44,213 bases of DNA from a virus (IMGVR_UViG_3300032397_000027:1-44213), one strand, 5' to 3'. Positions 452 to 25,360 are shown, counted from the first letter of the stretch. A program made the numbers and translations. Notes: generated from the letters alone by a model not told the origin.

Positions 452-460
452 TTAATCTTT
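452..460 (+). promoter_or_regulatory. AATCTT-type intergenic motif upstream of the structural block
   Basis: TTAATCTTT lies in the divergent gap before the first structural gene, about 62 bases upstream of its start. It matches the AATCTT core of the motif repeated at later junctions but has T instead of C at the first position. Proposed as a late promoter element or RNA-processing signal. Confidence 0.4.
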
Positions 461-521
461 TCCTCGGATAGGCCGGGGTTGATGTAAGTCCCCCAGGCCG
501 TCTACAACCCAAGGAGTGCAA

Positions 522-905
522 GTGGCTAATATCGCGGTGGAGTTTAGCGTGTCAGTGACCGGTGAAACGACCGGTGAGATGTTCAAGGGTGTCTTCAAGG
601 CGATTCCCCGCCTGAGCCATAGCGCGAATCTGCGCCGTGACCAGCTGCGTCGGGACATCCTGGGCCCCAAGCCTGAGGATGCAGGTCCAGATGCCCAGAA
701 CGTGGCTGCAGTCTTTTCGAAGATTTGGGTCCATGTGACCGAGGCTCCGTCCTGGTGGAAAGACAGCCGGAACGGACTCGAACTCCTGGATGAGACCCCC
801 GTGGCTGCCGTGTACGACAATGTCGCACGTATTGAGCGCGAGGCCGTTGAGGCCGTTCGTAAGGCGGCCGAGACGGCCCAGGAAGAGCTGAAGAAGGCCC
901 CATGA
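522..905 (+). CDS. Hypothetical tail-region protein, first gene of the structural block
   Basis: A 127-residue protein of unknown function. I prefer GTG 522 as start because AAGGAG (511-516) lies 5 bases upstream; the in-frame GTG at 516 overlaps that site and has no usable SD of its own. The N-terminal half looks beta-rich (residues about 1-20, SVSVTGETTGEMFKG), the middle holds APSWWKD, and the last 35 residues form a charged Ala/Glu/Lys helix. The stop overlaps the next start (ATGA), so these genes are translationally coupled. Its place just before the tape measure gene suggests a tail completion or assembly role, which is inference. Confidence 0.6.
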   Translation: MANIAVEFSVSVTGETTGEMFKGVFKAIPRLSHSANLRRDQLRRDILGPKPEDAGPDAQNVAAVFSKIWVHVTEAPSWWKDSRNGLELLDETPVAAVYDNVARIEREAVEAVRKAAETAQEELKKAP

Positions 906-1129
906 AGAATCTTGACGACATCAAAATCGTAGCAGGTAAGGTCGGGGCTAGGACCAAAATCTACGTCAATGGCGAGCAGATTGGTAATTGCACCAGGGTC
1001 GAGTTTGTCGCCCAGGCCGGTGGCATGAACAGGGTGGTCTTTGAGGTCATTCCCGAGAACGTGCTCATCGAGCTTCCCAAGGGCCATTCGGTGCTGCGCA
1101 TGAAGGAAAAGAAGCTGAAGACTCCATGA
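902..1129 (+). CDS. Small beta-rich tail-region protein
   Basis: A 75-residue protein coupled at both ends by ATGA overlaps. It carries the pattern IYVNGEQIG followed by RVEF, a beta-hairpin opening that recurs in the 147-residue protein at 21696 (VYINGRPFG, then REFSF). Small beta-sandwich proteins of this kind occur among phage tail-tube and tail-completion components, but the similarity here is only a short motif. The C-terminus is basic. No enzymatic motif is visible. Function is unknown; a structural tail role is inferred from context. Confidence 0.55.
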   Translation: MKNLDDIKIVAGKVGARTKIYVNGEQIGNCTRVEFVAQAGGMNRVVFEVIPENVLIELPKGHSVLRMKEKKLKTP

Positions 1130-1665: not shown

Positions 1666-1672
1666 CAATCTT
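1666..1672 (+). promoter_or_regulatory. CAATCTT motif upstream of tape measure gene
   Basis: CAATCTT begins directly after the TGA of the preceding gene, 30 bases before the tape measure ATG. It is one of the repeated junction motifs of the structural block. Confidence 0.5.
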
Positions 1673-1695
1673 CTCTGTATTCCCAGGGATAAAGA

Positions 1696-4143
1696 ATGAG
1701 TGACACCAAGGCCGTCAGGTTTCAGTTTGTGGTGGATGAGAACAGCGCCAGGTCCGTTCACCGGGTCCTGGACGACCTCATCAAGAAGGCCAATGAGCTT
1801 GGCAAAGCCATGGGCGGTGCAGGTGGCGGTATTCTGGGTGGCATCCGAACCGGTGGCGGTACCCCCAGTGCTCAGAGCACCCTAGCTGGACGTGGGGGCG
1901 TGGCCAGTAAGCAGGGCGGTGGTAGCATCACCCAGGTCCTGACGTCAAACGTGGACATCTTCAAGAAGATGGCCAACGATGGCAGTGCGGCAATGAAGGT
2001 GATGGGAGATGCCGTTCAGCGGGGGGTCAACCAGCAGCGGGGGGAGATTAACAAGCTCAAGGAGTCCCTGGACGCACTCGTTAGAACCTACGAAAAGGTC
2101 GGCGGCAGTGCCAGCGGGGCAATTGGGGAGAAGATTCAGAACAAGGTCCTCCAGATTCAGTCCCGGATCGGAGCCGGACAAAAGCAACTTGGGGCTCTTC
2201 GGGACATTCAGGGCTCAGGAAGAGAGCTGATGCCGGAAATCCCCTGGCCGGGAAGTGGAGCCGCCAAGGAAGGTCTCTGGTCGAAGCTGACGCGCAGCCG
2301 CGCTATGCCTGGTATGGGCATGGTCGACAGCGCCATGGAGGGCAGCTCCATTGGGCAGCTGCTCGGTGGCATGGGCATCACCAAGGGTATGGTCGGCGGT
2401 GCCGGGCTTGCCATGGTGGGTGCCTGGGGCGCCAAGAACATCTATAAGCAGCTCAATGAGGCACCCGACCAGCTTCTCAGCTCTGACTCTAGACAGGCCA
2501 CCATGTTGGCGCAGCGGTCTCTGGAGCTTCGCAACGGGGAGCTTCGGAACAAGACAGCTGAACAGCAAATCTTCCTGGATACCGACAAACGCAAGGATTA
2601 CGAGAGTCTGGGTAGCGGTTGGCGTCGTTTCGGTCACAGTGCCGGTGCTTTCTTCAGTGGAGAATTTGCAGATGCATTTACGGGCAGAGCTGCTGACCAG
2701 GGAGTCAAGGCTAGACGTAACAAGCAGATTGAAATGGAAAGGGCCACTGACCCTTTGATGGATGCCGTTAAGGGCGATGCTCAAAACTTTCGCGCAACAC
2801 TCGGCAGCATGCGTGCTATGGGTGTCTATGCCAAAAAGGGCCTGACTGGATTCGAGGCCCTGGCTTCGCATCGTAACGCCTACTCAGCTTTTGATGATAG
2901 CGAAATCGCCGCTGCATTTCAGGGCATCAGTGGGGCTGGCACTCGCGGAGCTGCTTATGGGCTACAGGGCTCTGCAATGCATGCTACTGCCGCAGGCATT
3001 CATGGCGCAGCCGGCAGCATTGGAACGATGTCTAAGTTTGGCGGTGGCGGAGCATTCGCAAATGCCATGCTGCAGATGGCTGGTGGTGGAAAAGTTGATG
3101 CAACCACGACCGGCATCATGACCCAATACATCGCTCAACAGCAAGACCGTCTTGGCATGAACACGGGAGCGGGTGCTGGGCAATTCCAGGGTCAGGGCCT
3201 CATGGACATGATTGCCAGGGGCACTCAGGGCCAAGGAGGCCGTCTCATTGCCGAGCAAAACATGAGGGGTGTCGACTACCTTCAGCGCGCGATGACAGGG
3301 CAGACCAGCCCCTACCAGCAGGCTCGTAATTTCATGATTGCAGGTGAGGCTGCCCCGGGTCTGAATGTGTATGGTCAAGGCTTCTTGTCCAGCAAGATGA
3401 GTATGACCGAGCTGGCCGATGCCGCTGAAGGCCGGGGCGGGGGCGTCTCATCCATCTTCAAGGCTTTGGGTGGTAACAAGGCTCAAGCCAAGGAATACTT
3501 CAAGGGTGTAACCTCCAGTCTCTTGGAAGGTGTTACCTCCGAAGGCATGGGTGGAAGTGACTCCGGGATTCTCATGAAGGCCATGGCTCAATCTGGCATG
3601 GATCCCAGAGAGTTCTTCAAGAAGGGCGGCTACAAGAAACTCAAGGGTGAAAGTGGGAAAATCATGACCCAAGAGCAGGCCATCGCTGCCTATGGCGGAG
3701 CCCTGACAGCCAGTGATGCCGACATGGACCCGGCCGCTGCCTTGGGTATGGCCAGAGCCATTGCAGGTGTCAGTGAGGGTCCAGGTAAGGGCAAGGGTAA
3801 GGCCGGTGCGGGTGGGATTCCAGAGACCGAGCTGGCCTCTCAGCAAATGAAGGTGTTGGCTGAGCAGGCTCGTGGAGCTGCAGGCGCTCTCACTGAGCTG
3901 ACCAATGCCGCCAAGTCAAACGCTGCCATGGCCAAGTTCGAGATGGACCATCGGGATGCGGGAAGTAAGATTACAGAGGCAGAGCGAGTCGCTGTAGGAA
4001 ACGCATTTGCCAGAAATCCAGAATTGACGGCCGAACAAGCGGAGCAGTATCTTGCGGAATTGAGGATTAAAACCGAAATAGCAAACAAGAACAAACCCTC
4101 TGTTACTCCCTCTTCGATCAAGAAAGAGGCTGGAGCATACTAA
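1696..4143 (+). CDS. Tail tape measure protein
   Basis: An 815-residue protein rich in Gly, Ala, Gln and Met, with no enzymatic motif. The N-terminal region (about 1-45) is helical, followed by Gly/Ser-rich linkers (about 40-80). A hydrophobic glycine-rich segment sits near residues 225-250, compatible with a membrane-active or tube-lumen segment. The second half alternates amphipathic helices with Gly-rich loops. Length, composition and position before the hub and spike genes fit a tape measure protein, which sets tail length and occupies the tail lumen before DNA ejection. It overlaps the hub gene by one base (TAATG). A weak AGGG lies upstream of its start. It is short for a very large phage, so a second tape-measure-like gene outside the window is possible. 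Confidence 0.68.
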   Translation: MSDTKAVRFQFVVDENSARSVHRVLDDLIKKANELGKAMGGAGGGILGGIRTGGGTPSAQSTLAGRGGVASKQGGGSITQVLTSNVDIFKKMANDGSAAMKVMGDAVQRGVNQQRGEINKLKESLDALVRTYEKVGGSASGAIGEKIQNKVLQIQSRIGAGQKQLGALRDIQGSGRELMPEIPWPGSGAAKEGLWSKLTRSRAMPGMGMVDSAMEGSSIGQLLGGMGITKGMVGGAGLAMVGAWGAKNIYKQLNEAPDQLLSSDSRQATMLAQRSLELRNGELRNKTAEQQIFLDTDKRKDYESLGSGWRRFGHSAGAFFSGEFADAFTGRAADQGVKARRNKQIEMERATDPLMDAVKGDAQNFRATLGSMRAMGVYAKKGLTGFEALASHRNAYSAFDDSEIAAAFQGISGAGTRGAAYGLQGSAMHATAAGIHGAAGSIGTMSKFGGGGAFANAMLQMAGGGKVDATTTGIMTQYIAQQQDRLGMNTGAGAGQFQGQGLMDMIARGTQGQGGRLIAEQNMRGVDYLQRAMTGQTSPYQQARNFMIAGEAAPGLNVYGQGFLSSKMSMTELADAAEGRGGGVSSIFKALGGNKAQAKEYFKGVTSSLLEGVTSEGMGGSDSGILMKAMAQSGMDPREFFKKGGYKKLKGESGKIMTQEQAIAAYGGALTASDADMDPAAALGMARAIAGVSEGPGKGKGKAGAGGIPETELASQQMKVLAEQARGAAGALTELTNAAKSNAAMAKFEMDHRDAGSKITEAERVAVGNAFARNPELTAEQAEQYLAELRIKTEIANKNKPSVTPSSIKKEAGAY

Positions 4144-6206
4144 TGGGCTCCTACAATCTTATCAATGAGCATCAGGCCCAGGCCGTCGATTCCAGCAAAC
4201 AGCTGGAGGCGGACAGTCTTGACTACGTGAGCACGTCGCCAAATTGGATCCTTATGATTGTCAGATTCAGGGAACCACTGACTTCAAGCCTGAGCCGTCT
4301 GGCGAAAATGAGCCACTACAATACCGGTGACGTATCTCTTGATAGCGATAGCTTCAAACTCACCGACACGAAGCCTCCGCTCATTATCACCAGTTCTTGT
4401 GTGCAGATGGATATCACTAGCTCCAAGGCGAACTACACGCAAAACCTCAATGCCGTCCTCAAGCCAGGGAAGGTGGAGTTTCTCTCTGCTATCATGCCTG
4501 GTGATTGGTGTCTCTGCTGGACGATGAACAGCAGGGAAAAGTACAGGGAGGTCCTGGACAAAATCAAAGCTGGTCAGGAGGCAGTAAATGGCTTTGAAGA
4601 CGGGCTCAAGTTTGTAGGGCGCGTTCACGATATTCGCGAGGTTCTAGCTCAAGCTCCGGGCGGACTCAAGACCATTCAATACAACCTCTCCGGCGTTGGC
4701 TTTGGGGAGTTGGACTCCAGCATCTTCTTTGACCCAGCACTAGCACGCAAGAGCACAACTCTCGCCAGAACCCTCCAGGACATGAATATCCTCATGAAGG
4801 ATATCCTGGAGACTGCCGCTAAAGAAGCTCAGGCTGGCAAGGGTGGCATCAGTGTCAACAACGTCATTCCGGCATTCCTGACAGCCTTCCTTGGCCGTGG
4901 CATTTCTGGCGTCGCGGTCGAGTCTGGAGGCCTAAATCTGGCTCAGGGCGCATCTGTGGCCAGCAAAGAAGCTCCTTTCTCGTATGTGATTCCAAATGGG
5001 GTTGCTAAGCTCCTGGGTGTCCAAGGAGCAAGCAAACCCAATGGTGTCTTCTGTTACGCAGACATCCTTGAGCTTGTTCAGGGTCTGCAGAAGTATCAAT
5101 CCAATGAGTTTCCGCAAATGTTCTATCCCACCGGGACTCTTCTCACCGATGAATCGAGAGGCGGAGCCCATAGGACTCGGCACATCACCAGTGAGCCCTT
5201 GAAGGGGGTCTTCCTCCCCATTCCTACGAGTTTTGATGGCAAGTCGGTCTGGAACCTGCTCAACGAATATCTGAATCCTGCCATCAACGAGATGTATACA
5301 GCCATGAAGTGGACCCCCAGCGGAAGGGTGATGCCGACGCTGGTCGTGAGGCAGCTCCCTTTCAGCTCCCCCATCATGAGTCAGAAGCTAGGGAATGATG
5401 TGACCGCCTACCACGAACTTCCCCGGTGGGTAGGAGACAAAACTCTCATTCGGAGTTTGGACGTAGGCCGTAGCGATGGGGCTAGGACGAACTTTGTCCA
5501 CATCTACGCACAGCCTAACAAGAAGACCCTGTCTTCAGCTCAGAGCTACCAAATTGTCCAGTGGCCGCCAATCAACGACCCCCAAGACATGAAGAGACAT
5601 GGCTTGCGTCCTCACATGGGGTCCATTCAGGCTGCGGCCACGGATTCGGTGACCGGTGGGCCAGGTCTCTGGATGAAAATCAAGTCTGACTTTCTTCTTG
5701 GTCAGCACATGATGTTGACGGGAGCCGTGTCAATGGTCGGGGTCACCCTCCCCATTGTGCCCGGAGACAACTTCGAGTTCAATAACATTCTCTACCATAT
5801 TGAGACCGTCAATCACCATGTGGAAATTAGAGCTGACGGTCACAAATCCTTCACGACACAGCTAAATCTCACTCATGGTCTTAGGGCTGATGTGCCCTCT
5901 GCTATCGAGAAGTTCTCCCCTGAAAGAAAGACGGTTAGCGGTAAGCCCCATCTTCGAAAAGATAGGATTAGAATTGGTGAATTCGTGGCTGCCTTCAAGG
6001 ACGGCGCCGGACGCGACGCGGCTTTCAAGACTTTAGGTGGCAAAGAAGCCTTTGTTCAAGCTGAAGTCGAAGATATTAGTGGGGAGACCAGTATCGAAGT
6101 CGGACAGATGGGCGAGAATCTGGACATCTATCTATACTCGGGTATTGACGCTGAAGACAATCGAGAGCTGGAACCCGGCGTTTTGGTCGTGGATGAAGAG
6201 GACTAA
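4143..6206 (+). CDS. Baseplate hub protein (gp27/late-control-D-like, tentative)
   Basis: A 687-residue protein between tape measure and spike, where the trimeric baseplate hub is normally encoded. Beta-rich segments near the N-terminus include PGDWCLCW (about 120) and FVGRVHDI (about 158). The middle has an Ala/Gly-rich helical insertion (about 225-285). The C-terminal third contains LPIVPGDNFEF and a histidine-rich strand near YHIETVNHHVEI, followed by a long acidic tail. No lysozyme catalytic motif is apparent. The start is ATG 4143 in a TAATG overlap with GGAG upstream. A CAATCTT motif lies within codons 4-6 of this gene, so the regulatory element overlaps coding sequence. The hub assignment rests on context and fold-like features, not on a diagnostic motif. 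Confidence 0.6.
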   Translation: MGSYNLINEHQAQAVDSSKQLEADSLDYVSTSPNWILMIVRFREPLTSSLSRLAKMSHYNTGDVSLDSDSFKLTDTKPPLIITSSCVQMDITSSKANYTQNLNAVLKPGKVEFLSAIMPGDWCLCWTMNSREKYREVLDKIKAGQEAVNGFEDGLKFVGRVHDIREVLAQAPGGLKTIQYNLSGVGFGELDSSIFFDPALARKSTTLARTLQDMNILMKDILETAAKEAQAGKGGISVNNVIPAFLTAFLGRGISGVAVESGGLNLAQGASVASKEAPFSYVIPNGVAKLLGVQGASKPNGVFCYADILELVQGLQKYQSNEFPQMFYPTGTLLTDESRGGAHRTRHITSEPLKGVFLPIPTSFDGKSVWNLLNEYLNPAINEMYTAMKWTPSGRVMPTLVVRQLPFSSPIMSQKLGNDVTAYHELPRWVGDKTLIRSLDVGRSDGARTNFVHIYAQPNKKTLSSAQSYQIVQWPPINDPQDMKRHGLRPHMGSIQAAATDSVTGGPGLWMKIKSDFLLGQHMMLTGAVSMVGVTLPIVPGDNFEFNNILYHIETVNHHVEIRADGHKSFTTQLNLTHGLRADVPSAIEKFSPERKTVSGKPHLRKDRIRIGEFVAAFKDGAGRDAAFKTLGGKEAFVQAEVEDISGETSIEVGQMGENLDIYLYSGIDAEDNRELEPGVLVVDEED
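4154..4160 (+). promoter_or_regulatory. CAATCTT motif inside the first codons of the hub gene
   Basis: CAATCTT starts 10 bases after the tape measure stop codon. Because the hub gene starts on that stop, the motif falls inside hub codons 4-6. Its distance from the upstream stop is in the range seen elsewhere, which argues that spacing from the upstream gene matters. Confidence 0.4.
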
Positions 6207-7315: not shown

Positions 7316-7322
7316 CAATCTT
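7316..7322 (+). promoter_or_regulatory. CAATCTT motif upstream of the LysM-gp25 fusion gene
   Basis: CAATCTT starts 5 bases after the spike stop and ends 6 bases before the next ATG. The downstream gene has no SD at normal spacing; GGAG is 13 bases upstream. The motif therefore occupies the place of a ribosome binding site. Confidence 0.5.
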
Positions 7323-7328: not shown

Positions 7329-9842
7329 ATGGCCATTGATAAAACCAACACAACCCAGCAAAATGTCGTGGCCACGGCTAATCGTGACAATACCGACATC
7401 GAAGATTCGGCTAAAGCGAACGAAGATCCGTTTTGGAGCTACGCCGAGCTGTCCACTGAAAAACGACGCTGGAACAAAGTCTATCCCTACAGGCTCTGTC
7501 TTTGGACTCGCAACGAAGACGGGAGGTGGGAGCAGGATTACTCTGTTCTCCAACCCTTCACGCTCCCCATCGCTCCAGAAAGTCTGACCATCAGCACTCC
7601 TTTTGCGATCAATACCAGCGTCACCCTTGGTGGCATTGTAGAAGAGCATAATGGGGCTCCTCTTCGCACCATCAGCATCAGTGGAACCACTGGCGTCCTG
7701 CCTTTGCGTGGTCGGGCTGAGGGAACCGCCGCTAATCGTTCCAGCACGGGCACTCTCAATGCTGTTTTTGCCGGAACCCTGAGGGGTGCATCTCAGGTCA
7801 AAACAGCTATCACTGGTACTGGAATTGGTGCGACTAAAAATACTCTCGCCGCAGAAGAGTCTGAGTCCAGCAGCGGGTATGCCCAGTTCAAGCTTCTTCA
7901 GCGATTCTTAGAGGCCTACGTCACCTACAAGAAAAAGATCGGGGCTCGAAACACGGTTCTGGCTTTGGAGATGTTCAAGGACCAGGAGACTTATTTTGTC
8001 TCACCGGTTAGCTTCGACCTTCGACGCTCTGCCGCTACCCCTCTGGAATATCAATACTCGCTGACTTTCAGAGCCTGGAAGAGGGTTCTTCCTTCAAATG
8101 GCAATGGACAGCAAATCAGCAGCTACGTCCCCATCTCCCGGGACCCCAACAAGCTTGCGAGTCTCCTCAACAAGCTGAACGCATCCCGCGTCGTCCTAGA
8201 AGGTGCCCGAAACACCCTTACCGGCCTCCGTGGTGACATTAACGCGGCCCTCTTTACACCTCTCAGGGAGTCGATTCTCTTCGCCAAAGAGCTTCTGGGA
8301 GTCGGTCTGACGGCCGTAGACCTGCCTCTGAGCGTGATTTCCGACCTGAAGGGGGTCATCACCGAGGCCTCTGGTGTAGCGGGCCAGCTGCAGGCATTTG
8401 GAGGCCTTGGGAACCGCTATTCTGAGGCTGCCACAGGCCTCGTCAACGCCGGCAAGGACCTTGCCCAGGCCTTCCAGAACCTCAGCATCAGTTCTGGCAC
8501 AGCTCAGACCCTGTCTGGGACTGGTTTGGGGACTGGCCAGCAGGCTCTTGAGGACGGAAATCCCGCTCACAAGGCCTCGGCGAATCCAGACCTCAACTTT
8601 GACTTCTATCAGACCATCCGACCTGGCACCCTGAACCTGGCTCCCCAGACTCAAAAGGCCATCCAAGCTGAGAAAGACCGCGTCAAGGCCCTGAAGAGGG
8701 AGGATTTTGAGGTTCGTCGCGACACTGTCATGGCCACACTCGAAGACTTTGAAAGCTCTGTAGGCCTGGGCAACGCCACCTACACGAGGGTTTATGGCCT
8801 CAGCTCCAAAGCCAAGGTCCGGGAGCCTAACGAGCAAGACTACGACATCATCAATGCCATGAATGCAACTCTCCTGGAGATGAACAGGCTCTGCGTCAGC
8901 TCTGAAATCAACCAAGACGAGGTTTCGTCCATCGATTACATCGCAGGTCTGGCCGCAGGAGCCGGGATTGCCTTCCGCGTCCCTAAATCCAAGTTCCTGG
9001 TGCCATTCCTGTATGGTCATACTCTGGAACAAATCAGTTCCATCTATCTCGGCACCCCAGACAGGTGGCATGAGATTGCAGCTCTCAATGGACTGCAGAC
9101 TCCTTACGTCGATGAGCTTGGCTTTCAGCTCCCATTGCTGACAAATGGCAACGGGAACAACATCACCGTCAGCGACGGCTCGAAATTGTTTGTGAATCAG
9201 CCCATTTGGATTGAAAGCACCGTTATGGGCAGGACTAAGCGTCGCATTACAGCTGTAGAGACTCTCAGTCCAGGTCTTGTCGCCGTGACCGTAGATGGCG
9301 CCGACGACCTCAGCTCCTACACCCTTGGGGCCAGTGCCTTTGCTCAGGCTTTCTTACCTAATACCGTGAATTCACAGCAGTCCATCTACATCCCCAGTGA
9401 TGAAGCTGTCGAAGAGGACGACTTCCGTCTCAAGTCCGTCCCGGGGGTCGACCAATTTGACCCTCTTCTGCGTGTGGGCGGCATTGACCTGCTCCTGACC
9501 CAGAATGGTGACCTGGTCATTACCCCAGACGGTGACACCAGGCTGGCCGTAGGTCTGACAAACATCACTCAGAAGGTTCGCCTGGTCCTGGACACGGTTC
9601 GAGGCAGTCTCCTTCATCACCCGGGCTATGGATTCCCGTCTCTGGTTGGCGAGAGCACTGCCAATGTCGACGCCAAGGGTCTGCTGAAGATTTGCCAGGA
9701 CCTCTTCAAGGACGACCCCACCTTCACTGGGGTTGAATCAGCTGCCATTCTGAAGGATGGACCAGTAATTAGAATCACCCTAAGTGTAGGTGTTCGTGGT
9801 ACCCAGCAGGTGATTCCCATCTCGGTCGAATTCCAGCGTTAA
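7329..9842 (+). CDS. Baseplate protein with LysM-like domain and C-terminal gp25/W-like wedge domain
   Basis: An 837-residue multidomain baseplate protein. Residues about 70-125 contain the PFTLPIAPESL segment found at the start of LysM-type baseplate hub proteins. A helical, Ala-rich middle region (about 280-420) follows. Near residues 563-600, GHTLEQISSIYLG and WHEIAALNGL form a LysM-like module. From about 706 to the end the sequence matches the gp25/gpW wedge fold: IDLLLTQNGDL, a helical DTVRGSLLHHPGYG and terminal beta strands. In T4 and P2 the wedge protein is a separate small gene; here it is the C-terminal domain of a large protein. It precedes the J gene, its expected partner. No good SD is visible. 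Confidence 0.72.
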   Translation: MAIDKTNTTQQNVVATANRDNTDIEDSAKANEDPFWSYAELSTEKRRWNKVYPYRLCLWTRNEDGRWEQDYSVLQPFTLPIAPESLTISTPFAINTSVTLGGIVEEHNGAPLRTISISGTTGVLPLRGRAEGTAANRSSTGTLNAVFAGTLRGASQVKTAITGTGIGATKNTLAAEESESSSGYAQFKLLQRFLEAYVTYKKKIGARNTVLALEMFKDQETYFVSPVSFDLRRSAATPLEYQYSLTFRAWKRVLPSNGNGQQISSYVPISRDPNKLASLLNKLNASRVVLEGARNTLTGLRGDINAALFTPLRESILFAKELLGVGLTAVDLPLSVISDLKGVITEASGVAGQLQAFGGLGNRYSEAATGLVNAGKDLAQAFQNLSISSGTAQTLSGTGLGTGQQALEDGNPAHKASANPDLNFDFYQTIRPGTLNLAPQTQKAIQAEKDRVKALKREDFEVRRDTVMATLEDFESSVGLGNATYTRVYGLSSKAKVREPNEQDYDIINAMNATLLEMNRLCVSSEINQDEVSSIDYIAGLAAGAGIAFRVPKSKFLVPFLYGHTLEQISSIYLGTPDRWHEIAALNGLQTPYVDELGFQLPLLTNGNGNNITVSDGSKLFVNQPIWIESTVMGRTKRRITAVETLSPGLVAVTVDGADDLSSYTLGASAFAQAFLPNTVNSQQSIYIPSDEAVEEDDFRLKSVPGVDQFDPLLRVGGIDLLLTQNGDLVITPDGDTRLAVGLTNITQKVRLVLDTVRGSLLHHPGYGFPSLVGESTANVDAKGLLKICQDLFKDDPTFTGVESAAILKDGPVIRITLSVGVRGTQQVIPISVEFQR

Positions 9843-9847: not shown

Positions 9848-9915
9848 CAATCTTCAGTAGGACCCTGCCGCAACTGCTGGCAATCTTTGAAGTAGGGTAC
9901 AATCTCTACAGGGAC
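9848..9915 (+). promoter_or_regulatory. Triple tandem CAATCTT-type motif upstream of baseplate J
   Basis: The 81-base gap holds three copies: CAATCTTCAGTAGG (9848), CAATCTTTGAAGTAGG (9881) and CAATCTCTACAGGG (9900). All three share a downstream purine-rich stretch ending in AGG or GGG. The first begins 5 bases after the upstream stop; the last AGGGA may double as a weak SD about 9 bases before ATG 9924. It is the only junction with more than one copy. Confidence 0.55.
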
Positions 9916-15802: not shown

Positions 15803-15809
15803 CAATCTT
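15803..15809 (+). promoter_or_regulatory. CAATCTT motif upstream of the 15827 gene
   Basis: CAATCTT starts 5 bases after the J stop codon, 24 bases before ATG 15827. A separate good SD (GAGGA, 15818-15822) follows it, so the motif is not the ribosome binding site here. Confidence 0.5.
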
Positions 15810-15826: not shown

Positions 15827-16300
15827 ATGCCATCACCTATTCCTGGACCCCCACCAATTGCCTCTGCCACCGTAGCTGGGCTCTTGTCTTCTTTGGGTAG
15901 TCCCCCTCAATACATTGCTGGTGTCAAGCACTTCACGGACTACACCATCTTCGATTACCCAGTCGTCTTTATGATGACAAATCGTTATTCCAGCGACAAC
16001 ACGCTGTTGGCATTTGCGGGCGGTGGCTTTGCTGGGTCCTTGAATGTCGTACCTGTAGCTGAGGTCAACTACATTGCCTCGAACAGTCCAGGTGATTCAG
16101 TCAATCTCGGAGCCGGTGGGGGCCAACGGGTACTCATCTTCAATACTGGTCCAAGTTCCATGGACATTTACCCAAATGCAGGCGGCGACATCGACGGTTT
16201 GGGCCTCGACGGATTTGGCGATCCAAACCCCTATACCTTGCCAGCCGGACAAAGTCGTGAATTCTGGGGCGAATATGCGTTTCAATGGAGAAGCCGCTAA
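15827..16300 (+). CDS. Small fibre- or baseplate-associated protein
   Basis: A 157-residue protein with GAGGA at good spacing before its ATG. It starts with a Pro-rich stretch (PSPIPGPPPIAS) and continues as a beta-sandwich-like sequence with glycine-rich turns (NLGAGGGQRVLIFN, near residues 94-107) and a C-terminal LPAGQSREFWGEY. The last pattern resembles the ends of small phage or virion beta-sandwich proteins in which an aromatic strand closes the fold. It lies between baseplate J and the large Kelch/LamG protein, so a structural adaptor or fibre-associated role is likely. No homolog is recognised. Confidence 0.55.
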   Translation: MPSPIPGPPPIASATVAGLLSSLGSPPQYIAGVKHFTDYTIFDYPVVFMMTNRYSSDNTLLAFAGGGFAGSLNVVPVAEVNYIASNSPGDSVNLGAGGGQRVLIFNTGPSSMDIYPNAGGDIDGLGLDGFGDPNPYTLPAGQSREFWGEYAFQWRSR

Positions 16301-16755
16301 TGTCATCCCCTAAAATCGAAGTTTTCTTCTTATACAACGCAAGCACCGGCGTTCCATTGACCGGGGCGGTGCCGACCTTTGATACCTACAAGGACGACCT
16401 TGGCTTCAATTTGACCCAGCCGGCCATCACGGAGATTGGTGGCGGAGCCTATGGGTTCACTCCTGACATCACCACGAATCCAGACCGAGGCGTTGTCTAC
16501 GTCGTCAACGGCACGATCTCTGCAATGCCACAGCGCCTGGCCCGGTTCATCCGACCCGAGGACTATGCCGCCGACCTACTCCCCGACATGTACGCCATGG
16601 ACTTTGGCAAGTGGGAAATCAAGACTGCCGGGCTCGACATCAACAGGCTGCTGACCTACAAGCTGGACGGTTCCACCATCTTGAAGAAGTTCAACCTCTT
16701 TGATTCCGCTGGAGCACCGACCAGCATCAATCCGTTTAAGCGCGATCCCATCTAA
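16300..16755 (+). CDS. Small fibre-associated protein, unknown
   Basis: A 151-residue protein. I choose ATG 16300, which overlaps the upstream TAA as TAATG with GGAG 10 bases upstream. An in-frame ATG at 16285 has no SD and would lengthen the overlap. The N-terminal 80 residues look like an Ig-like or carbohydrate-binding beta fold with alternating strands (KIEVFFLYNASTG, GGAYGFTPDI); similar domains sit at the N-terminus of some phage fibre proteins. The C-terminal part (WEIKTAGLDINRLLTY) has mixed structure. It is coupled to both neighbours. Function is unknown. Confidence 0.55.
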   Translation: MSSPKIEVFFLYNASTGVPLTGAVPTFDTYKDDLGFNLTQPAITEIGGGAYGFTPDITTNPDRGVVYVVNGTISAMPQRLARFIRPEDYAADLLPDMYAMDFGKWEIKTAGLDINRLLTYKLDGSTILKKFNLFDSAGAPTSINPFKRDPI

Positions 16756-16757
16756 CC

Positions 16758-19700
16758 ATGTCCTTCCCAATCACACGGGGCCTTGGCAATCAAGGTGATG
16801 GTAGCAACTCAAGCCTCATCAGTACACGAGGCTATGGGAACCCAGGACCTACCACAGGGCCTGCTGGCTTCTATGTTGCTTCTGCGACTCAGATTACCCC
16901 AGGTAGTGTTCGCGTCACATACAGCGCGATTCCAAAGGCCAGCTCGTCTCTTGCCGTTGATGACGCACTAAATCTTGGCAACTATACCCTGGCCGGACCT
17001 GCGGGTTACAGCATTGTCTCAATTCAGCCTGTCAGCGGTGACCCTTTCAGCGTGGATATCGTCCTCACCGTGGGGCTTGTCATTGGCACTTGGGTGGTTC
17101 AGGTCTACAACGTCAAAACGACGAGCAACGGACTTCTGATACCCCCTACGGCAACTCAGTTCCAGGTCATCAGCAATGCGACCTTGACCCCGCTTAGCGC
17201 TGGCGCCGAGAACGATAACCCAGAGAAAATTATTCGCAAGCACCTCAGCCCCGCTCTCAAGGGGGGCAACTGGGATGCAGTTATCAAGGCCCTGAGCGTT
17301 GGTGACGACATCAACTGGAACAACGCAAGAGCGGCCTTTGACCAGCTCTTCTTGTCCTCCGCATCTGGCACCTACTTAGAGCGCAAAGCTGGTGACCAGG
17401 GCCTAACCAAACCCCAGAATGTCGGCATTGACGATGAATCATTCAGGAAACTGGCCATCAAGACCAGCGCCAACAAGGTCGTTCATGAGGCCATCCGAGA
17501 AATTCTTGAGGTCTACTACGGCCAGGACAGTCTCCGGGCCTTTGTAGAGACCGGGCTTGATGAGAAATACAACCTCAGCGGCAATCCCACACTCAGCTGG
17601 ATTCTGGACGAAAAAGAAGAGTTCACTCACACTTTCATCGGCTCTCAGCTCAGTGCCCCCACGGCCGGAAAGGCTTTGGAAGTTGCGATCGCTCTCACGA
17701 AGACCATGCGGGAGGCGGGGAGCAAGGGTTTTGCTTCTGTCTACAAGTCCCCGCTGTCGGGTGGATACAAAGTTCGCATTTACAGCGGCAGCTTGGGTCT
17801 TGGTTCTTTTGTCCGAATCACCGGTGGCACCGCCCAGAACATCTTCAAATTCCCTACCGAGCTTCCCACCTATAGCGGCATCACCACAGGTGCCGGTTGC
17901 AACTGGATTTACACCCAACCCAGCCAGGACGTGACGCGGGTCAGTCTCACGATTACCGGCTCCCCCTTCCTTGTTGACCTCAGCATTGTTCAGGAAGGGG
18001 ACTACGTTGTCATTGGCGAGGATGCCCAAATCGGCACCACTGGCACCTTTGCTGTCAGAAGTGTGTCGGTTAATTGGACTAGCGGGACCCAAGTCGTTCA
18101 AAGTTTTGATATCGACCGCATTACTTTCAGCGGGACCGCAAACCAAGCCAGCAACGACGCTTACCGGTTTTATCGACCAACAAAAAATAGCATTGCAGCC
18201 AGCGCAGGTCGAACTGTGGTTGTGGCGCAGACCAGGCCTGGCCAGATTGACATCAACATTCCGGCCACGACCCAGATTGTTTCCCGTGGCCCTGGGCAGG
18301 CTTTCTACGGTCGTCTGAATTCCAGCCTTGGCATCGCCCGTCTGCTTCGAGATGGCACCGGGCTCCTAACCATCACCACCGACGCTTCGCATGGACTCAA
18401 TGTGGGCGATTGGGTCAGATTGGATGACATTGTTCCGTCTCGGACTTTGGCATACATCGATTCGGGCAATGCAGCGGTTTATCCTGCAGCCTTCACTTAT
18501 GCGGCCAGCTACGCCAGCATCTTTGCAAGAAGTCAAACTCCAGCTGTACCGGTAAACGAAGACGCAGCAGCTGTTACCCTCAGCAACGGCCAGATTCTTT
18601 TTTGCGGTGGTTTTACTCGTGGCGTCGGGAATGTCATCAACTCGGCCGGCTTCCTGACCTCCACCAGCACTCCAGCCACCACCACGGATTGCAATCGATA
18701 CGAAGCCGGAGCGACGACCCTCATTACTGATGCCACGGAAGCCGATGGGGCCCTGAGAAGTGGCCATTCTTGGATTGCCACTTCAAGTCTGAATGGGGCT
18801 CGGGAACGTCATGCGGCCAGCCGCTATCTGACCGGTGCCATTGTCAGCGGCGGTATGACCGAAAGTCCAGATACTATCCTTGCCAGTGCCGAGGAGTACT
18901 CCCTGGGCGGGGCCTGGACTGTTCTAGCAAGCATGGGCTCACCTCGGGCAGGGCATTGCCAGGTGGAATTGAATTCCGGGGACATCATTGCTGTCGGCGG
19001 TGCAACGACTGAGGGCATTGCGCTCAAGACGACGGAGGTCTTCAGTGGTGGTGGTGCTTGGAGTGCCGGGGCCACCATGAATGTGCCCAGGACTGACTTC
19101 CAGGTTGTGAAACTCAGCAACGGCGACCTCATGGCCATCGGTGGTCGCACCATGGGCCAGGGCTGTCAGATGGACGCCAAAACCCTAGCTCTCTGGCGTC
19201 TTGATGAAAGTGCTGGACCTACGGCGGCAGACGATACGTCCAACTTTCCGCTTACCCACACCAACGTACCTGTCCCGAGCATTCAGGGCAAGGTCGACGG
19301 CTGTCTCGATTTCAATACCATTACCTCACACCTGACGGGAGCTGGTTCGGCTGGGGCTGCAGCTGCCCTGCTCGGCGAGTGGACTTTGGAGGCCTGGTTT
19401 AAGCTGAGTGCCAACACCAACCCTCCTCAGGTCTTCGCTTCCTATGGCGCAGCTGGTGGCGGCAGCGCCAACAATCTGCTCTTGAATGCTGGCATTGATT
19501 CGACGGGTCGCATCTACTGGCAATGGCAGTATGGCGGAAGTATCTACGTTTCTGGTACCCAGACGGACCCCATCACCAGCAATGCGGTTTACCGCCCCAC
19601 CTTCTTCAATCACGTTGCTGTCAGGAAGAGCTTCAGCTCTCCGCAGAGAATTGTCAGTGGCAGCCGACTCACGAATGTGACGACGCTGAATTTTGCTTCG

Positions 19701-21695
19701 CCTCATGGATTCCTGTTTGGTGATACTGTCTTCGTTGAATTTGTTGGTTATGCGCCCCTATTCGCGGGTGGCAGCAAGACCCTGACCGCTGTGACTGCCA
19801 CGAGCATCAGCTACGCCGAAGTCGCAACTGATGACGTTTACCGCGTTCTCGATGGCAATGTCGGCAAGAATTTTGACGTAACCCTCTTCGTGAACGGGAC
19901 CCAGATTCAAACCTGGACCAACCAAATCAATGCCAGCGATGGCATTTCCGGTGCCTGGTACATCGCCAAGGACCCTAACATTGCCACCGGGTTTGAGGGC
20001 TTCCTGGACGACATCCGTGTCAGCACCATTGCTCGCTCTGAGGGTGAGATTCGAGAAACCTTCCTTCGTGGCTGGGGCAATCACAAGCCCCTCTCTGCGG
20101 GTGACATGGCCATCGGTGCCTGCACGGACACCTGCGAAATCTACAACGGGAGCAGCTGGACCCAAGTGGCTAGGATGAGCAAGGCCAGGGCGTTCCATCG
20201 CGCTGTTGTGCTCCCTGGTGACTACATTCTTGTACACGGCGGTTTGGGCTACGACGCGACTCAGACTCCGGCGAGCGCCGTTCCGGCAACGCTGGGTCTC
20301 TGGCCTAGCAACAGCCTTCGGGATGCAGAAATCTACGACCCCACCGTCAATCGATGGCTCCCCGTTGCTGCCTCTGGAATCAGGCGTCATGGCCACATCA
20401 TGGCCTATTTGCCTACCACAAACAAAATTGTCGTTGCAGGTGGTGTCAGTCTCAATCAAGACATCCTCGATGTCGACAATGCAGGCTGTGCGGAAATTCT
20501 CGACCTCGCCTCCAAAACCTGGCAGACGGCTCCTGCCAAGTATCGGCTGGCCGCAGGTCCTGTAGCTGGAGCCGCAACCCCCTCTGAAAGAGAGGTTGTC
20601 GTCTATGGCGGCTTTAACTCAACTGGGGCCACCAACCCCTACGCTCTGACGTACATTGACGCAAGCAACAGCCTCTCCAATGGCGGTCTCAACGGCGAGC
20701 ATCGTGTTCTTGCTGTCCCATCGTCTACCACCATTCAAATTCAGACTGGAGAGCTGGGTTACACCAGCAATTTCGGTAGCGCCTACATTGGCGACGACGC
20801 CGCTCAAATCTGGACTGGCGGCTACTGGAACAATGTCATTGGCTCCAGAACGGCCGGGGTCACCACCCTCATTGTGGGCTTCCCAGCGGGCTACAGTACT
20901 CATGGATTCGTTGTGGGCGACCTGGTGTATGCGAACCTGAAGACCCCACTCTTTGCCTCAGGCCTTAAAACCATCACTGAAGTGACCAGTACGAGCATTA
21001 GCTACATTGAAGTGCTCGCTGACCAGGCTACTTTGGGTTTCACTGGTAGCATCAGTAGGAACTACAGCCCAGACGCCATCCTGGTGGACCAGGGGGCAAG
21101 CACCCAAGCTCTCAACGACCCAGGCCCTTACATCTTCGCCCCGGATGACGGACTTGCCGTCACCTCCACGGAGTCGGCTGTCTTGGGCTTCCCTTTGTAC
21201 GCCAACCAGAACTACGAAGAGGTGGAAATTGATGACACTCTTGGTGAGGGCTCCTTGTTCCCAGATGCACCGGGTTACATTGTCGTGGGCTTCGGCACCA
21301 ACTCCCAAACTCCTCCCATCAAGTACCTGGGACGTTACAAAGATAGCCCGACCACCGTCAGGCTTACATTGGACTACAGTTACAAGTTCACCTCTGACCA
21401 AGTTCTTGGCACCAAGGTCACCCTCCTGAGCCAGAGAAGCCCATACGCCCCGCTGGAGGCCCCTGGCAGCGCCTACGTGACCGCCAGCAGTGCAGGTAGG
21501 GTTGCGGCCCAGGCAGCTGCCGAAGCGGCCTTGGCGGCCGGCGTAGAGCCCCACGTAACCATCGCCTTCCCTGGCGACCGAGGTCTCGGTGGCGAAGGTT
21601 TGCCCAGCCACGGTGCCCAAAAGCTCAGCGACAAGGTGTCCGTCTTTGGCGGAGACAACCTTACTGAAGAAATTCAAGATGATAGGGAGGCCTAA
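16758..21695 (+). CDS. Large tail protein with Kelch propeller and embedded LamG domain
   Basis: A 1645-residue protein. The N-terminal 310 residues begin with a beta sandwich and then a helical section around residues 150-240 that looks like a tail-attachment domain. Kelch-type repeats, marked by GG followed by small residues and ExY (for example NGDLMAIGG and REVVVYGG), lie near residues 680-810 and 1130-1290. Between them at about 810-1105 is a LamG/concanavalin-like domain (WTLEAWFKL, VTLFVNGTQI, FLDDIRVS). An HG-x-GD beta module occurs near 535 and is duplicated near 965-1025 and 1360-1425. The C-terminus is Ala-rich. It probably is a receptor-binding or cell-surface-binding tail component. 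No SD precedes ATG 16758, which is 2 bases after the previous stop. Confidence 0.72.
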   Translation: MSFPITRGLGNQGDGSNSSLISTRGYGNPGPTTGPAGFYVASATQITPGSVRVTYSAIPKASSSLAVDDALNLGNYTLAGPAGYSIVSIQPVSGDPFSVDIVLTVGLVIGTWVVQVYNVKTTSNGLLIPPTATQFQVISNATLTPLSAGAENDNPEKIIRKHLSPALKGGNWDAVIKALSVGDDINWNNARAAFDQLFLSSASGTYLERKAGDQGLTKPQNVGIDDESFRKLAIKTSANKVVHEAIREILEVYYGQDSLRAFVETGLDEKYNLSGNPTLSWILDEKEEFTHTFIGSQLSAPTAGKALEVAIALTKTMREAGSKGFASVYKSPLSGGYKVRIYSGSLGLGSFVRITGGTAQNIFKFPTELPTYSGITTGAGCNWIYTQPSQDVTRVSLTITGSPFLVDLSIVQEGDYVVIGEDAQIGTTGTFAVRSVSVNWTSGTQVVQSFDIDRITFSGTANQASNDAYRFYRPTKNSIAASAGRTVVVAQTRPGQIDINIPATTQIVSRGPGQAFYGRLNSSLGIARLLRDGTGLLTITTDASHGLNVGDWVRLDDIVPSRTLAYIDSGNAAVYPAAFTYAASYASIFARSQTPAVPVNEDAAAVTLSNGQILFCGGFTRGVGNVINSAGFLTSTSTPATTTDCNRYEAGATTLITDATEADGALRSGHSWIATSSLNGARERHAASRYLTGAIVSGGMTESPDTILASAEEYSLGGAWTVLASMGSPRAGHCQVELNSGDIIAVGGATTEGIALKTTEVFSGGGAWSAGATMNVPRTDFQVVKLSNGDLMAIGGRTMGQGCQMDAKTLALWRLDESAGPTAADDTSNFPLTHTNVPVPSIQGKVDGCLDFNTITSHLTGAGSAGAAAALLGEWTLEAWFKLSANTNPPQVFASYGAAGGGSANNLLLNAGIDSTGRIYWQWQYGGSIYVSGTQTDPITSNAVYRPTFFNHVAVRKSFSSPQRIVSGSRLTNVTTLNFASPHGFLFGDTVFVEFVGYAPLFAGGSKTLTAVTATSISYAEVATDDVYRVLDGNVGKNFDVTLFVNGTQIQTWTNQINASDGISGAWYIAKDPNIATGFEGFLDDIRVSTIARSEGEIRETFLRGWGNHKPLSAGDMAIGACTDTCEIYNGSSWTQVARMSKARAFHRAVVLPGDYILVHGGLGYDATQTPASAVPATLGLWPSNSLRDAEIYDPTVNRWLPVAASGIRRHGHIMAYLPTTNKIVVAGGVSLNQDILDVDNAGCAEILDLASKTWQTAPAKYRLAAGPVAGAATPSEREVVVYGGFNSTGATNPYALTYIDASNSLSNGGLNGEHRVLAVPSSTTIQIQTGELGYTSNFGSAYIGDDAAQIWTGGYWNNVIGSRTAGVTTLIVGFPAGYSTHGFVVGDLVYANLKTPLFASGLKTITEVTSTSISYIEVLADQATLGFTGSISRNYSPDAILVDQGASTQALNDPGPYIFAPDDGLAVTSTESAVLGFPLYANQNYEEVEIDDTLGEGSLFPDAPGYIVVGFGTNSQTPPIKYLGRYKDSPTTVRLTLDYSYKFTSDQVLGTKVTLLSQRSPYAPLEAPGSAYVTASSAGRVAAQAAAEAALAAGVEPHVTIAFPGDRGLGGEGLPSHGAQKLSDKVSVFGGDNLTEEIQDDREA

Positions 21696-22139
21696 ATGCC
21701 CAGAGCAAGAGTAATTTCAGGGGCTTCGGTCTTTGTCTACATCAACGGTAGGCCTTTTGGCCGTATCCGGGAATTCAGCTTCAGGTCGATGACTCCCCGC
21801 CGGGCCATCTATGGCATTGACAGCATGTCCCCATACGAGCTGGCCCCCAGCCAGACCAAAATTACTGGCAGCATGAGCATCTATCGAACTGTGGGTGACG
21901 GTGGCGCAGAGGGCGCAGGCATTACCGCCACCATCGAAGACCTTTCCAGGGAAAGGTACTTCAGCATCATGCTCATTGACCGTGGCACGGACATGGTCTT
22001 GTTTCAAGCTGATTCCTGCAGCCTCAATGGTCAGTCTTGGAGTGTGCCCAGTCGGGGTATCATTACAGGAAGCCTAGAGTTTGAGGCTTTGACTTGGAAC
22101 AACGACGTCAAGCCTACTGGTATCAGCTTTGGTGGTTAG
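21696..22139 (+). CDS. Tail-tube-like structural protein
   Basis: A 147-residue beta-rich protein with GGGAGG 6 bases before its ATG, adjacent to the upstream stop. It opens with VFVYINGRPFG and REFSFRS, has ITGSMSIYR in the middle, and ends with ITGSLEFEALTW. The alternating strands and repeated ITGSxS/LEF edges resemble the beta-sandwich fold shared by tail-tube, tube-initiator and some baseplate proteins. In this order, after the large adhesin-like protein and before the glycine-rich fibre, a tube-related or fibre-anchor role is possible. Position argues against it being the main tube protein, which should lie left of this window. Confidence 0.5.
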   Translation: MPRARVISGASVFVYINGRPFGRIREFSFRSMTPRRAIYGIDSMSPYELAPSQTKITGSMSIYRTVGDGGAEGAGITATIEDLSRERYFSIMLIDRGTDMVLFQADSCSLNGQSWSVPSRGIITGSLEFEALTWNNDVKPTGISFGG

Positions 22140-22142
22140 CAG

Positions 22143-22149
22143 CAATCTT
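22143..22149 (+). promoter_or_regulatory. CAATCTT motif upstream of the glycine-rich fibre gene
   Basis: CAATCTT starts 3 bases after the upstream stop and 59 bases before ATG 22202, which has its own CGGAG. The 62-base gap contains nothing else recognisable. Confidence 0.5.
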
Positions 22150-22201
22150 TCACTCGGGTCCGGTCGCAGCCGCACAGACCTAAATCCCCGGAGATATTAG
22201 A

Positions 22202-25200
22202 ATGAGCGTCCTTCGCCAGTTGAACATTTTGGGGTCCATGCGGCTCGATGTACCACATTTGCGCTCAGTTGAAAGCTCGATCGCCGCCGACTTCGATGTC
22301 GTTGCTGGTCGAGTTCAGGCTGGTGAGAGAGCCCTTGTCGTCCGTGGTTTCACGCTGACCAACTTTACAGCCGGCACGATGGCCACGAGCCTCCAGCTGG
22401 TCACCGCTGATGGCATCCTCTACAACATGAATGCCAGCGAGGCGGGGACCTTCCTTTGGGTACCGGCAGATCGTGACGTTGAAATTCTGAATTCGGCGAC
22501 CAATGCCCGGGTTGATGGCAGTTTTGCGGCTGGCCAGGTCAATTACATCGGCCTCGACCTCCGACGCACCGCTGATGCCACGACTTCGGACCTTGTGCAG
22601 TTCTTGGACCCAAACACCCTCCTGGAAAACCCCAAGACCGTCCCGCTGGGTCGTACCCTTGACTACCGCATCGTCATCAGCACCACGCCTTTTAGTGCTT
22701 CTCCGAACCTGGTTCCCATCGCCAAGGTCGTGACTGACGCCAACAGCAACGTTTCTGCAGCCACTTACAGCGTTCAGGACGCTCGAAACATCATGTGGCG
22801 GCTGGGTTCGGGTGGAGACTTTCCGAATCGCTACAGCAGCTTCAACTGGGCTCAGAATCGCACCGAATCTGTTTCTGGCCCCACTGTCTTCACCGGTGGC
22901 GACAAGGCCATCGAGAGCCAGAAGGACTGGATGGATGCCATCATGACCAGGCTCTGGGAGCTTGGTGGTGGTGAGAATTGGTACAGTGGCACGGCTGACC
23001 GCAATGTTCGCATGGTTCGTAATCCCGGTCTGGTATTCGCCAGCAATGGCGACAACTTCGAGTGGGTGACGAGCAACCTCCATTGGCAGGGCTTGAAAAT
23101 TGTCTTCGACAACGCCAACACGGGCGGTGTCTATTACAACAGCGTTGTCGACCAGCTCGGCGACCTCGCAGGCAAGACCGACCTCGCTGACGGCGAATGC
23201 ATCTACGTGGACATCGGCAGGACTGGGAATGTCGGTGTCACAGCTCAGAAATCCACCCTGCAGGCTCTCTCTGTTCCCTCGACCCCGGGCTCAAGGTATG
23301 TTCTTGCTTGGCGAGTCAACGGCAACATCCACACCAGGGACGCCTCTTGGCCTGTCAACGTTCTCTTCATGCAGCCTGCGACCACAACTGTCGCCGGTGC
23401 CGTGCGTCTAAATGAGACCCCCAATCCGGTTCATGCGGGAGCTGGTGTTCCTACCGTCGCCACCCTGAATGCTAACAATAGCGTTCAAATCGGCGCAGGA
23501 CCCTATTTTGTCAGTGGTAGTGCATCGGCAATTATCGGTTGGGGCGGTTTTGTTAATGGCACAGGCCTTGACGGGCATGGTGGCGGTACAACGGGCATCG
23601 GCGTTACTGGCTGGGGTGCCAGTGGTGGCGGGTGGGGCGGCTATTTCGAGGGTGGAGGAACGGGCACCGGCTGTGTTGGTGAAGGTTCAGCTACAGGTGG
23701 CATGGGTGTTGCTGGCTATGGAACTATTGGCCAGAACGGTGTCTATGGCAGCTCAGACACTGGAACGGGCGTATACGGCAGCTCTGGAACGAGCGGGCTT
23801 GCTTCTTTTGGTGTCTATGGTCAGGGCAACAGCGTCACCGCTACTGGCGTGTACGCGAATGGTTATACGGCAAGCATTGCCGGTAATTTTGCCGGTGGTC
23901 TCGCTCTCAATGCCCGTGGTGGTGACGGTTATAGCTCGGGTGGTGCTGGGACTGTCGTAGGTGGAGATGGCGGTTATCTCTTCGGCGGCAATGGCAACAG
24001 CAGCTCTGGTGTTAGCGGTGCTGGTGGATGGGGTGCTTGGATTCAGGGCGGTTCAGGTGGCGGCACTGGTACCCGTGGGGCAGGTGGCCGTGGAGCTTTA
24101 ATTATCGGTGGCTCTGGCGGCGGTTCAGGTGCTACACGAGGTCAGGGTGCTGCAGCTATTATTGCAGTCGGTGGAGACGGTGGTACTGCCGGAGCTGGTG
24201 CTGGTATCAATGCCACGGGTGGCTCTGGTTCTGGCGGAGGAACTGCTGGTGGTATCGGCGGCATCTTCAGGGGTGGTGCTCACGACGACACCCCAGGTGT
24301 GGGCATTAGCGTCTTTGGCGGTACAATCAATCTGTTCGGCAATGGCAATGGCGCTACTGCTGCCATTTTCCAAGGCGGCGCCGCCGGTGGCTTCAGTGCC
24401 AATGGCGGCAATGGCATCACAGCTACTGGTGGCACCAAAGCTGGTGTCGGAACCTCTGGCTATGGAGCTTATCTCACCGGCGGAGCTTCCGGCGGTGGAG
24501 GCTTGTTTGCAACTCCCGGAGGCAATGGCAATGCCATTGATGCCACAGTTACTGCAGGAACGGGCCGTGGTGTTAACGTGTCGATGGGTGCCGCCACAAC
24601 CGGCAATGGTATTGCCGTCAGTTTGATCGCTGGTAGTACGGGGCCTGGAATTTTAGTACTCCCAAATGGTTCAGGCGCCGGCATTAGCGTGAGTGTGACT
24701 GGTACTGGATATGGTGCATATATTCTCGGTGGCGGCAGCGCACCGGCGCTTCGTGTGGAGGCAGGCAACACTCAAATCGGTATTTCTGCTCTCGGCTCCA
24801 ACACCCAGCCAGCCATCGTAGCAAACGGCAACTCGGCAACCCAGCCCGCACTTCGTGCCACTGGCTCATCAGCAAAGCCCGGTATTCATGCAAACAGTTC
24901 CGTCAACAGTGTTCCTGTCATTCAGAGTGATGGCTTTATTGACCTGGCAGGAGCCTCAACTCCAGCCACGACTGCAGGCGATAAAACTCTGACTCCGCAG
25001 GGTGTCTTGCGAGCCTCCTGTCGATTCACAGTCACTGCCGGCCCCTATGCGATAACTACGAATTCCTCTTTCAACCTTAACAGCGCACCCACCATCGATG
25101 TCGGCGGCCTGGTTGTTATAGTCACACTCGAACACGTTGTTGGTACTGAGTGTATTGTTCAATTCACTCCCTTCAACAACACCGGGGCAAATTACGGCGC

Positions 25201-25345
25201 GACCTTTGTGGTCTCGGCCGTAGACAATCTCGGGCCAGGATCCAGAACTAGGGTTGTTTTGCTGTCCATCAATACCACCACCGGCGCAGGCGCTCCCGCG
25301 ATTGCTAACGTCGGCGGCTTCCTTTCCGTCTACTCAATGAACTAA
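22202..25345 (+). CDS. Glycine-rich tail fibre protein
   Basis: A 1047-residue fibre. The N-terminal 400 residues are ordinary beta/alpha sequence with a conserved-looking fibre motif TTVAGAVRLNETPN near residue 400, reminiscent of the TPGVVQL-type joints in phage fibres. Residues about 435-800 are extremely Gly-rich, with irregular repeats (GVYGSS, GGSGGGTG, GGNGNS) suggestive of polyglycine-II or beta-helical sheets as in other Gly-rich phage fibre tips. The last 130 residues form a beta-rich head (TAGDKTLTPQGVL, VVSAVDNLG), possibly a trimerisation or binding domain. It is likely a receptor-contact fibre. It has its own CGGAG and an AATCTT-type motif upstream. Confidence 0.65.
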   Translation: MSVLRQLNILGSMRLDVPHLRSVESSIAADFDVVAGRVQAGERALVVRGFTLTNFTAGTMATSLQLVTADGILYNMNASEAGTFLWVPADRDVEILNSATNARVDGSFAAGQVNYIGLDLRRTADATTSDLVQFLDPNTLLENPKTVPLGRTLDYRIVISTTPFSASPNLVPIAKVVTDANSNVSAATYSVQDARNIMWRLGSGGDFPNRYSSFNWAQNRTESVSGPTVFTGGDKAIESQKDWMDAIMTRLWELGGGENWYSGTADRNVRMVRNPGLVFASNGDNFEWVTSNLHWQGLKIVFDNANTGGVYYNSVVDQLGDLAGKTDLADGECIYVDIGRTGNVGVTAQKSTLQALSVPSTPGSRYVLAWRVNGNIHTRDASWPVNVLFMQPATTTVAGAVRLNETPNPVHAGAGVPTVATLNANNSVQIGAGPYFVSGSASAIIGWGGFVNGTGLDGHGGGTTGIGVTGWGASGGGWGGYFEGGGTGTGCVGEGSATGGMGVAGYGTIGQNGVYGSSDTGTGVYGSSGTSGLASFGVYGQGNSVTATGVYANGYTASIAGNFAGGLALNARGGDGYSSGGAGTVVGGDGGYLFGGNGNSSSGVSGAGGWGAWIQGGSGGGTGTRGAGGRGALIIGGSGGGSGATRGQGAAAIIAVGGDGGTAGAGAGINATGGSGSGGGTAGGIGGIFRGGAHDDTPGVGISVFGGTINLFGNGNGATAAIFQGGAAGGFSANGGNGITATGGTKAGVGTSGYGAYLTGGASGGGGLFATPGGNGNAIDATVTAGTGRGVNVSMGAATTGNGIAVSLIAGSTGPGILVLPNGSGAGISVSVTGTGYGAYILGGGSAPALRVEAGNTQIGISALGSNTQPAIVANGNSATQPALRATGSSAKPGIHANSSVNSVPVIQSDGFIDLAGASTPATTAGDKTLTPQGVLRASCRFTVTAGPYAITTNSSFNLNSAPTIDVGGLVVIVTLEHVVGTECIVQFTPFNNTGANYGATFVVSAVDNLGPGSRTRVVLLSINTTTGAGAPAIANVGGFLSVYSMN

Positions 25346-25353
25346 GCCGGCGA

Positions 25354-25360
25354 TAATCTT
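25354..25360 (+). promoter_or_regulatory. TAATCTT motif upstream of the last structural gene
   Basis: TAATCTT starts 8 bases after the fibre stop, 30 bases before ATG 25384; the downstream AGGAG is separate. It has T rather than C at the first position, as at 452. Confidence 0.4.

Follow-up and report, generated by a model that had tools for sequence, protein, structure and literature searches.

What directs expression of the structural genes in the virus contig IMGVR_UViG_3300032397_000027? This 44,213-base stretch, analysed whole and called the window here, is probably a fragment; it is a piece of a large myophage, a relative of Myxococcus phage Mx1. Its tail, baseplate and virion genes occupy the plus strand between about 453 and 25,695, and its replication genes (among them ligase, helicase, primase and RNA ligase) are on the minus strand. 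A first-pass annotation noticed that a short word, which we write YAATCTT (Y, C or T), recurs at the plus-strand gene junctions, and proposed a late promoter or an mRNA-processing site. Our analysis strongly supports the promoter, on the grounds of a fixed 6-base distance to ATG or GTG in three variants of the motif, a start-site signature, again at this distance, in copies that precede a leader, restriction to the late strand with conservation before orthologous genes, and the combination of a changed motif in one clade with a truncated sigma family in these phages. We consider it very probable that YAATCTT is the -10 element of the late promoter of Mx1-like phages, with a phage sigma factor that lacks region 4.2 as the probable reader.

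We propose the following mechanism. Late genes would be driven by a promoter without a -35 element, the motif lying at roughly -13 to -7 and transcription starting 7 bases after it. Where an ATG or GTG falls exactly on the start site the mRNA would be leaderless; elsewhere it would carry a leader with a Shine-Dalgarno (SD) sequence. Host RNA polymerase would probably be guided to these sites by a phage protein of the sigma-70 family that keeps regions 2 and 3 and ends before region 4.2.

Distribution of the motif in the window and in relatives

The copies first listed are all present to within one base, as YAATCTT at nine sites and as the variant CAATCTC at 9900, and the claim that every sizeable plus-strand gap holds the motif also stands: each of the seven that exceed 2 bases carries at least one copy. 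The scan by junction and strand that had been suggested, run against shuffled sequence, found 8 YAATCTT in 371 plus-strand gap bases, where 5000 gap shuffles averaged 0.089 and never exceeded 2. CAATCTT over the whole window and both strands numbers 9 against 5.4 ± 2.2 in shuffles, 7 of 100 of which reach 9, and all nine copies are on the plus strand with none on the minus. The signal is thus one of strand and position, the window-wide count being unremarkable by itself. Beyond the earlier list, plus-strand YAATCTT occurs at 25467, within a plus-strand gene, and at 32358 and 37728, antisense in minus-strand genes. The copy at 4154, at the junction described as gapless, lies within the gene starting at 4143. 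In G001, Mx1 and G005 the 75 bases preceding the starts of the orthologues contain no motif; this copy may be a chance occurrence or an internal site or promoter.

A BLASTN search of the window DNA against phage records returned no match; it took protein searches to find relatives. With the window proteins these recovered Mx1 (169.6 kb; baseplate gene 39% identical to that of the window) and IMG/VR contigs, the closest large relative being IMGVR_UViG_3300049489_000707 (G001; 168.9 kb, 67% identity). Two separate searches, one with the baseplate protein and one with the sigma protein, added further relatives. Among hexamers upstream of genes, AATCTT heads the ranking in the window (7/14, expected 0.29), as it does independently for the late genes of Mx1 (14/49, expected 0.79). 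It also takes first or second place among late-strand hexamers in G001, G004, G007, G008, G012, G013, G014 and G015, and likewise in G019, G022, G025, G028 and G029, which were found via the sigma gene alone; the guanine-cytosine content of relatives with a top-ranked AATCTT runs from 40% to about 70%. In one clade (G009, G010 and G017; the CAATCAT clade) the top words are CAATCA and AATCAT, and in contig G011 the top word is AATCTA, from a CAATCTA motif. The same pipeline applied to phage T4 returned TAAATA/TATAAA, the known TATAAATA, and no 6-nucleotide (nt) peak; the Mx4 control gave no late-strand motif, and AATCTT was unranked in both. The motif is confined to regions upstream of genes on the late, structural strand. 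Early-strand genes are without it and are preceded instead by TTGACA-like words.

Distance to start codons and predicted leaderless transcripts

Distances to ATG and GTG were counted without gene calling. Among 214 late-strand YAATCTT copies, 37 lie exactly 6 nt before an ATG and 14 before a GTG, other distances being represented by a few each. The same peak recurs in the CAATCAT clade (12 ATG and 10 GTG of 62) and in G011 (9/17), and at -12 to -7 of ATG the most enriched hexamer is AATCTT (42 vs 4.6, p about 5e-26). CAATCTT-N6-RTG (R, A or G) precedes the baseplate gene in the window, Mx1, G001, G004 and several contigs, most of which have a baseplate protein just ~38-44% identical to that of the window. 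Since a -10 hexamer lies 6 nt ahead of the transcription start, mRNAs from such sites should begin at the start codon. Leadered copies (12-75 nt from the start) point to the same position: 34 of 61 have a pyrimidine-purine step where the leaderless ATG would lie, compared with 6-17 at other positions. Spacing and start-site signature, both sequence signatures, hence agree on the A or G of the start codon as the predicted leaderless start site, and about one third of the mapped promoters would yield leaderless mRNAs. Where the site is 12-40 nt from the start, an SD sequence is present in 32/46 cases, against 30% of late open reading frames (ORFs) that lack the motif and 11% of random 15-mers.

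The motif had also been said to track the end of the upstream gene. In the window it does lie 0-8 bases after stop codons, because the gaps there are short, but relatives conserve its position with respect to the downstream start, either at exactly 6 bases or farther away with an SD sequence. Upstream of the motif there is no -35 conservation, all columns beyond -4 relative to it holding ≤0.15 bits; weak enrichment is confined to a G at the preceding base and a purine 4 bases before.

The putative prohead protease of Mx1 is annotated as starting at 13002, upstream of a CAATCTT-N6-ATG (L012:13002-13023); translation more likely begins at the in-frame ATG 13023. Before many genes of the CAATCAT clade, on both strands, stands CGTTCGCTATAGR-N6-ATG (L109-L111, L075-L079, L059-L067), which looks like another leaderless promoter class of these phages. 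Contig G013 carries TTTCGCTAC.

A candidate sigma factor and comparison with known late systems

A candidate reader is encoded by Mx1 gene 2071-3078, annotated as a putative sigma factor and close to the terminase. Members of its family occur in all near-complete contigs in which they were sought, and 30 IMG/VR contigs have one. The proteins are about 350 amino acids (aa) long and keep regions 2-3; the family profile covers 375-570 of the 617 positions of RpoD (E=1e-7), reaching from region 2 to where region 4 begins, and matches to models also end early (RpoD_Cterm 4-188 of 238; SigBFG 3-190 of 227). Region 2, for core binding and -10 recognition, is recognisable through SigBFG in 22/22 members and through Sigma70_r2 in 12/22, the latter below Pfam's cut-off. 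The helix-turn-helix of region 4.2, the -35 reader, was not found, the proteins stopping shortly past the end of the alignment, and its absence fits promoters without a -35 element. An AlphaFold model (mean predicted local distance difference test score 77.5, predicted template modelling (TM) score 0.60) has sigma factors as its top Foldseek matches, at a TM score of about 0.3-0.4, which supports the assignment to the sigma family only. The sigma proteins of the CAATCAT clade are among the most divergent of the set. We infer that this phage sigma reads the late motif.

The closest working analogue is T4 late transcription, in which a single element at -13 to -6 is read by the sigma-family protein gp55, with gp33 replacing domain 4 (PMC1524935, PMC2988020), an arrangement described as a split sigma (PMC2988020). 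In phage Aeh1, a CTAAATA promoter accompanies a diverged gp55, a reported case of promoter and sigma diverging together (PMC1524935). Like the T4 late system (TATAAATA, gp55, the co-activator gp33 and the sliding clamp gp45), Mx1-like phages have a single -10-like element without a -35 before structural genes, and their candidate reader, too, is a sigma-family protein of the phage that lacks the part for reading a -35. Nevertheless, the Mx1-like system is not a member of the T4 type, since it differs in sequence, in its larger sigma and in its frequent leaderless arrangement. The consensus is YAATCTT, YAATCAT or YAATCTA and not TATAAATA; the profile of the ~350-aa sigma retrieved no PDB chain of gp55 at E<=0.1; and many predicted start sites coincide with the ATG, a peak that T4 lacks.

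Phages related to phiKZ also use short, phage-specific late motifs that keep a constant distance to the start site (AR9 AACA-N6-TA/G, phiKZ TATG; PMC5312081), as predicted here, but theirs are read by phage multisubunit RNA polymerases, an enzyme type not annotated in Mx1, and AR9 mRNAs have leaders of 26-491 nt and are not leaderless.

In bacterial sigma-70 promoters (TTGACA/TATAAT) the best-conserved -10 positions are A at -11 and T at -7. AATCTT placed at -12 to -7 would retain both, whereas the -35 element has no counterpart. In our literature search neither CAATCTT nor AATCTT turned up as a phage promoter, nor did a leaderless late system of matching kind.

Beside the sigma gene, the gene that follows it often overlaps the sigma stop codon (L012:3075-3539; downstream of the sigma genes, L112-L141) and seems by eye to resemble GroES; GroEL is likewise among the annotated genes of Mx1. 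The idea that the missing region 4 is supplied by this next gene or by a frameshift was rejected, the next gene reading as GroES-like by eye and not as region 4 or gp33.

Weighing the alternatives

Several points count against the promoter and its proposed reader. In G027 the motif is outside the top-ranked hexamers, its sigma being the most divergent full-length one, and the motif is weak in G005 and in the 34-kb fragment G006. The window itself has a single site at exactly 6 nt from a start, at 7316, and its sigma gene lies outside the stretch and was taken from relatives. The scarcity of SD sequences at short distances is in part a built-in effect, as the motif occupies the place of the SD sequence. 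Gene calls in metagenome contigs are longest ORFs, and the shared ancestry of related contigs makes pooled counts overstate independence, the ranks per genome being the safer evidence. Finally, the whole evidence base is the sequence of the window, Mx1 and related phages.

An unlikely but not negligible alternative is that the motif is a -10-like element read by a host sigma factor with an activator, or by an unrecognised phage RNA polymerase. What ties the phage sigma to the motif is their co-occurrence, the variant motif in the clade with divergent sigmas, and the match between the absent region 4.2 and the absent -35 element, a link that would leave room for another reader. Against this, a direct tblastn search with T7 RNA polymerase gave no credible match, and Mx1, with no annotated RNA polymerase subunit, does have a sigma-like gene near the terminase.

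Processing or cleavage of mRNA between co-transcribed late genes, the other half of the original proposal, is quite improbable. The motif lies just past upstream stop codons in 6/7 window gaps, as such a site might, but a processing site belongs inside a transcript initiated upstream, and 30 of 143 junction copies are found in divergent gaps, where the motif has no upstream gene running in its own direction (for example window 453 and Mx1 13010, and, by the Mx1 annotation, 121392 and 129965), which favours a promoter. Moreover, the 6 nt to the start codon are kept and the distance to the stop is not fixed, and the pyrimidine-purine signature in leadered copies marks a start site.

Less probable still is a translation-initiation signal that recruits ribosomes without an SD sequence from 6 nt before the ATG. 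The fixed spacing to start codons without SD sequences would suit it, but many copies are separated from the start codon by 12-60 nt that include a normal SD sequence, with the start-site signature at the same 6/7 position, and the motif is absent from early-strand genes. Chance, or a codon-usage artefact of a 44-kb fragment, has a negligible probability: the window-wide CAATCTT count alone is not significant, but the enrichment in gaps, the clean negative controls and above all replication in independently found genomes refute it.

With a late promoter as the preferred reading, a broader proposal can be put forward tentatively, at somewhat worse than even chances: that a widespread, little-studied lineage of large phages expresses its late genes through a sigma without a -35 domain, often with mRNA beginning at the ATG, and that in at least one clade, with the second leaderless class described above, leaderless translation is one of the main ways in which the infected cell expresses genes. 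The late-promoter reading itself would provide Mx1-like phages, many IMG/VR contigs included, with their first promoter map; Mx1 was the first Myxococcus phage ever isolated. It would pair a short motif with a candidate sigma naturally lacking the -35 reader, offer many natural (predicted) leaderless late genes, and correct gene starts such as that of the Mx1 prohead protease.

Table 1. Motif copies and associated features of the window
Feature	Position	Strand	Remarks
TAATCTT, predicted late -10 element	453..459	+	Divergent gap 405-515; predicted +1 at 466; heads 516-1665; TAATCTT also at this junction in G001 and Mx1 orthologues
CAATCTT, predicted late -10 element	1666..1672	+	Predicted +1 at 1679; 17-nt leader to ATG 1696; motif at 25 nt in G001 orthologue
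CAATCTT inside gene starting at 4143	4154..4160	+	
CAATCTT, exactly 6 nt before ATG 7329	7316..7322	+	Predicted leaderless promoter of baseplate/tail-tube-initiator gene
Baseplate/tail tube initiator-like protein	7329..9842	+	Predicted leaderless
CAATCTT, tandem copy 1/3	9848..9854	+	Before baseplate wedge gene (9924)
CAATCTT, tandem copy 2/3	9881..9887	+	36 nt before ATG 9924; also 36 nt in Mx1 orthologue
CAATCTC variant, tandem copy 3/3	9900..9906	+	17 nt before ATG 9924; CAATCTT at 18 nt in G001 orthologue
Baseplate wedge (J-like) protein, 1957 aa	9924..15797	+	
CAATCTT	15803..15809	+	17 nt before ATG 15827; heads 15827-22139
CAATCTT	22143..22149	+	52 nt before ATG 22202; leader with CCGGAGA SD; kept in orthologues of L002, L004, G001 and G004, as TAATCTT in Mx1
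TAATCTT	25354..25360	+	23 nt before ATG 25384, likewise in L002 and G001; leader with CAGGAGA SD
Strong intrinsic terminator-like hairpin	25719..25743	+	Closes plus-strand late block

The tandem triplet is particular to the gap before the large baseplate gene, the remaining gaps having one copy each. Generic scans of the plus strand for sigma-70 promoters and terminators barely exceed shuffles, with the exception of the terminator at 25719. TTGACA-type promoter-like sites fall mostly on the early strand (window minus, e.g. 31464, 29408, 36539 and 6895), with weak enrichment, and are consistent with a host sigma reading the early genes; that at 6895 is antisense within the late block. In the early region of the window, ARAGORN predicts an odd tRNA with a four-base anticodon (30969-31049, minus strand).

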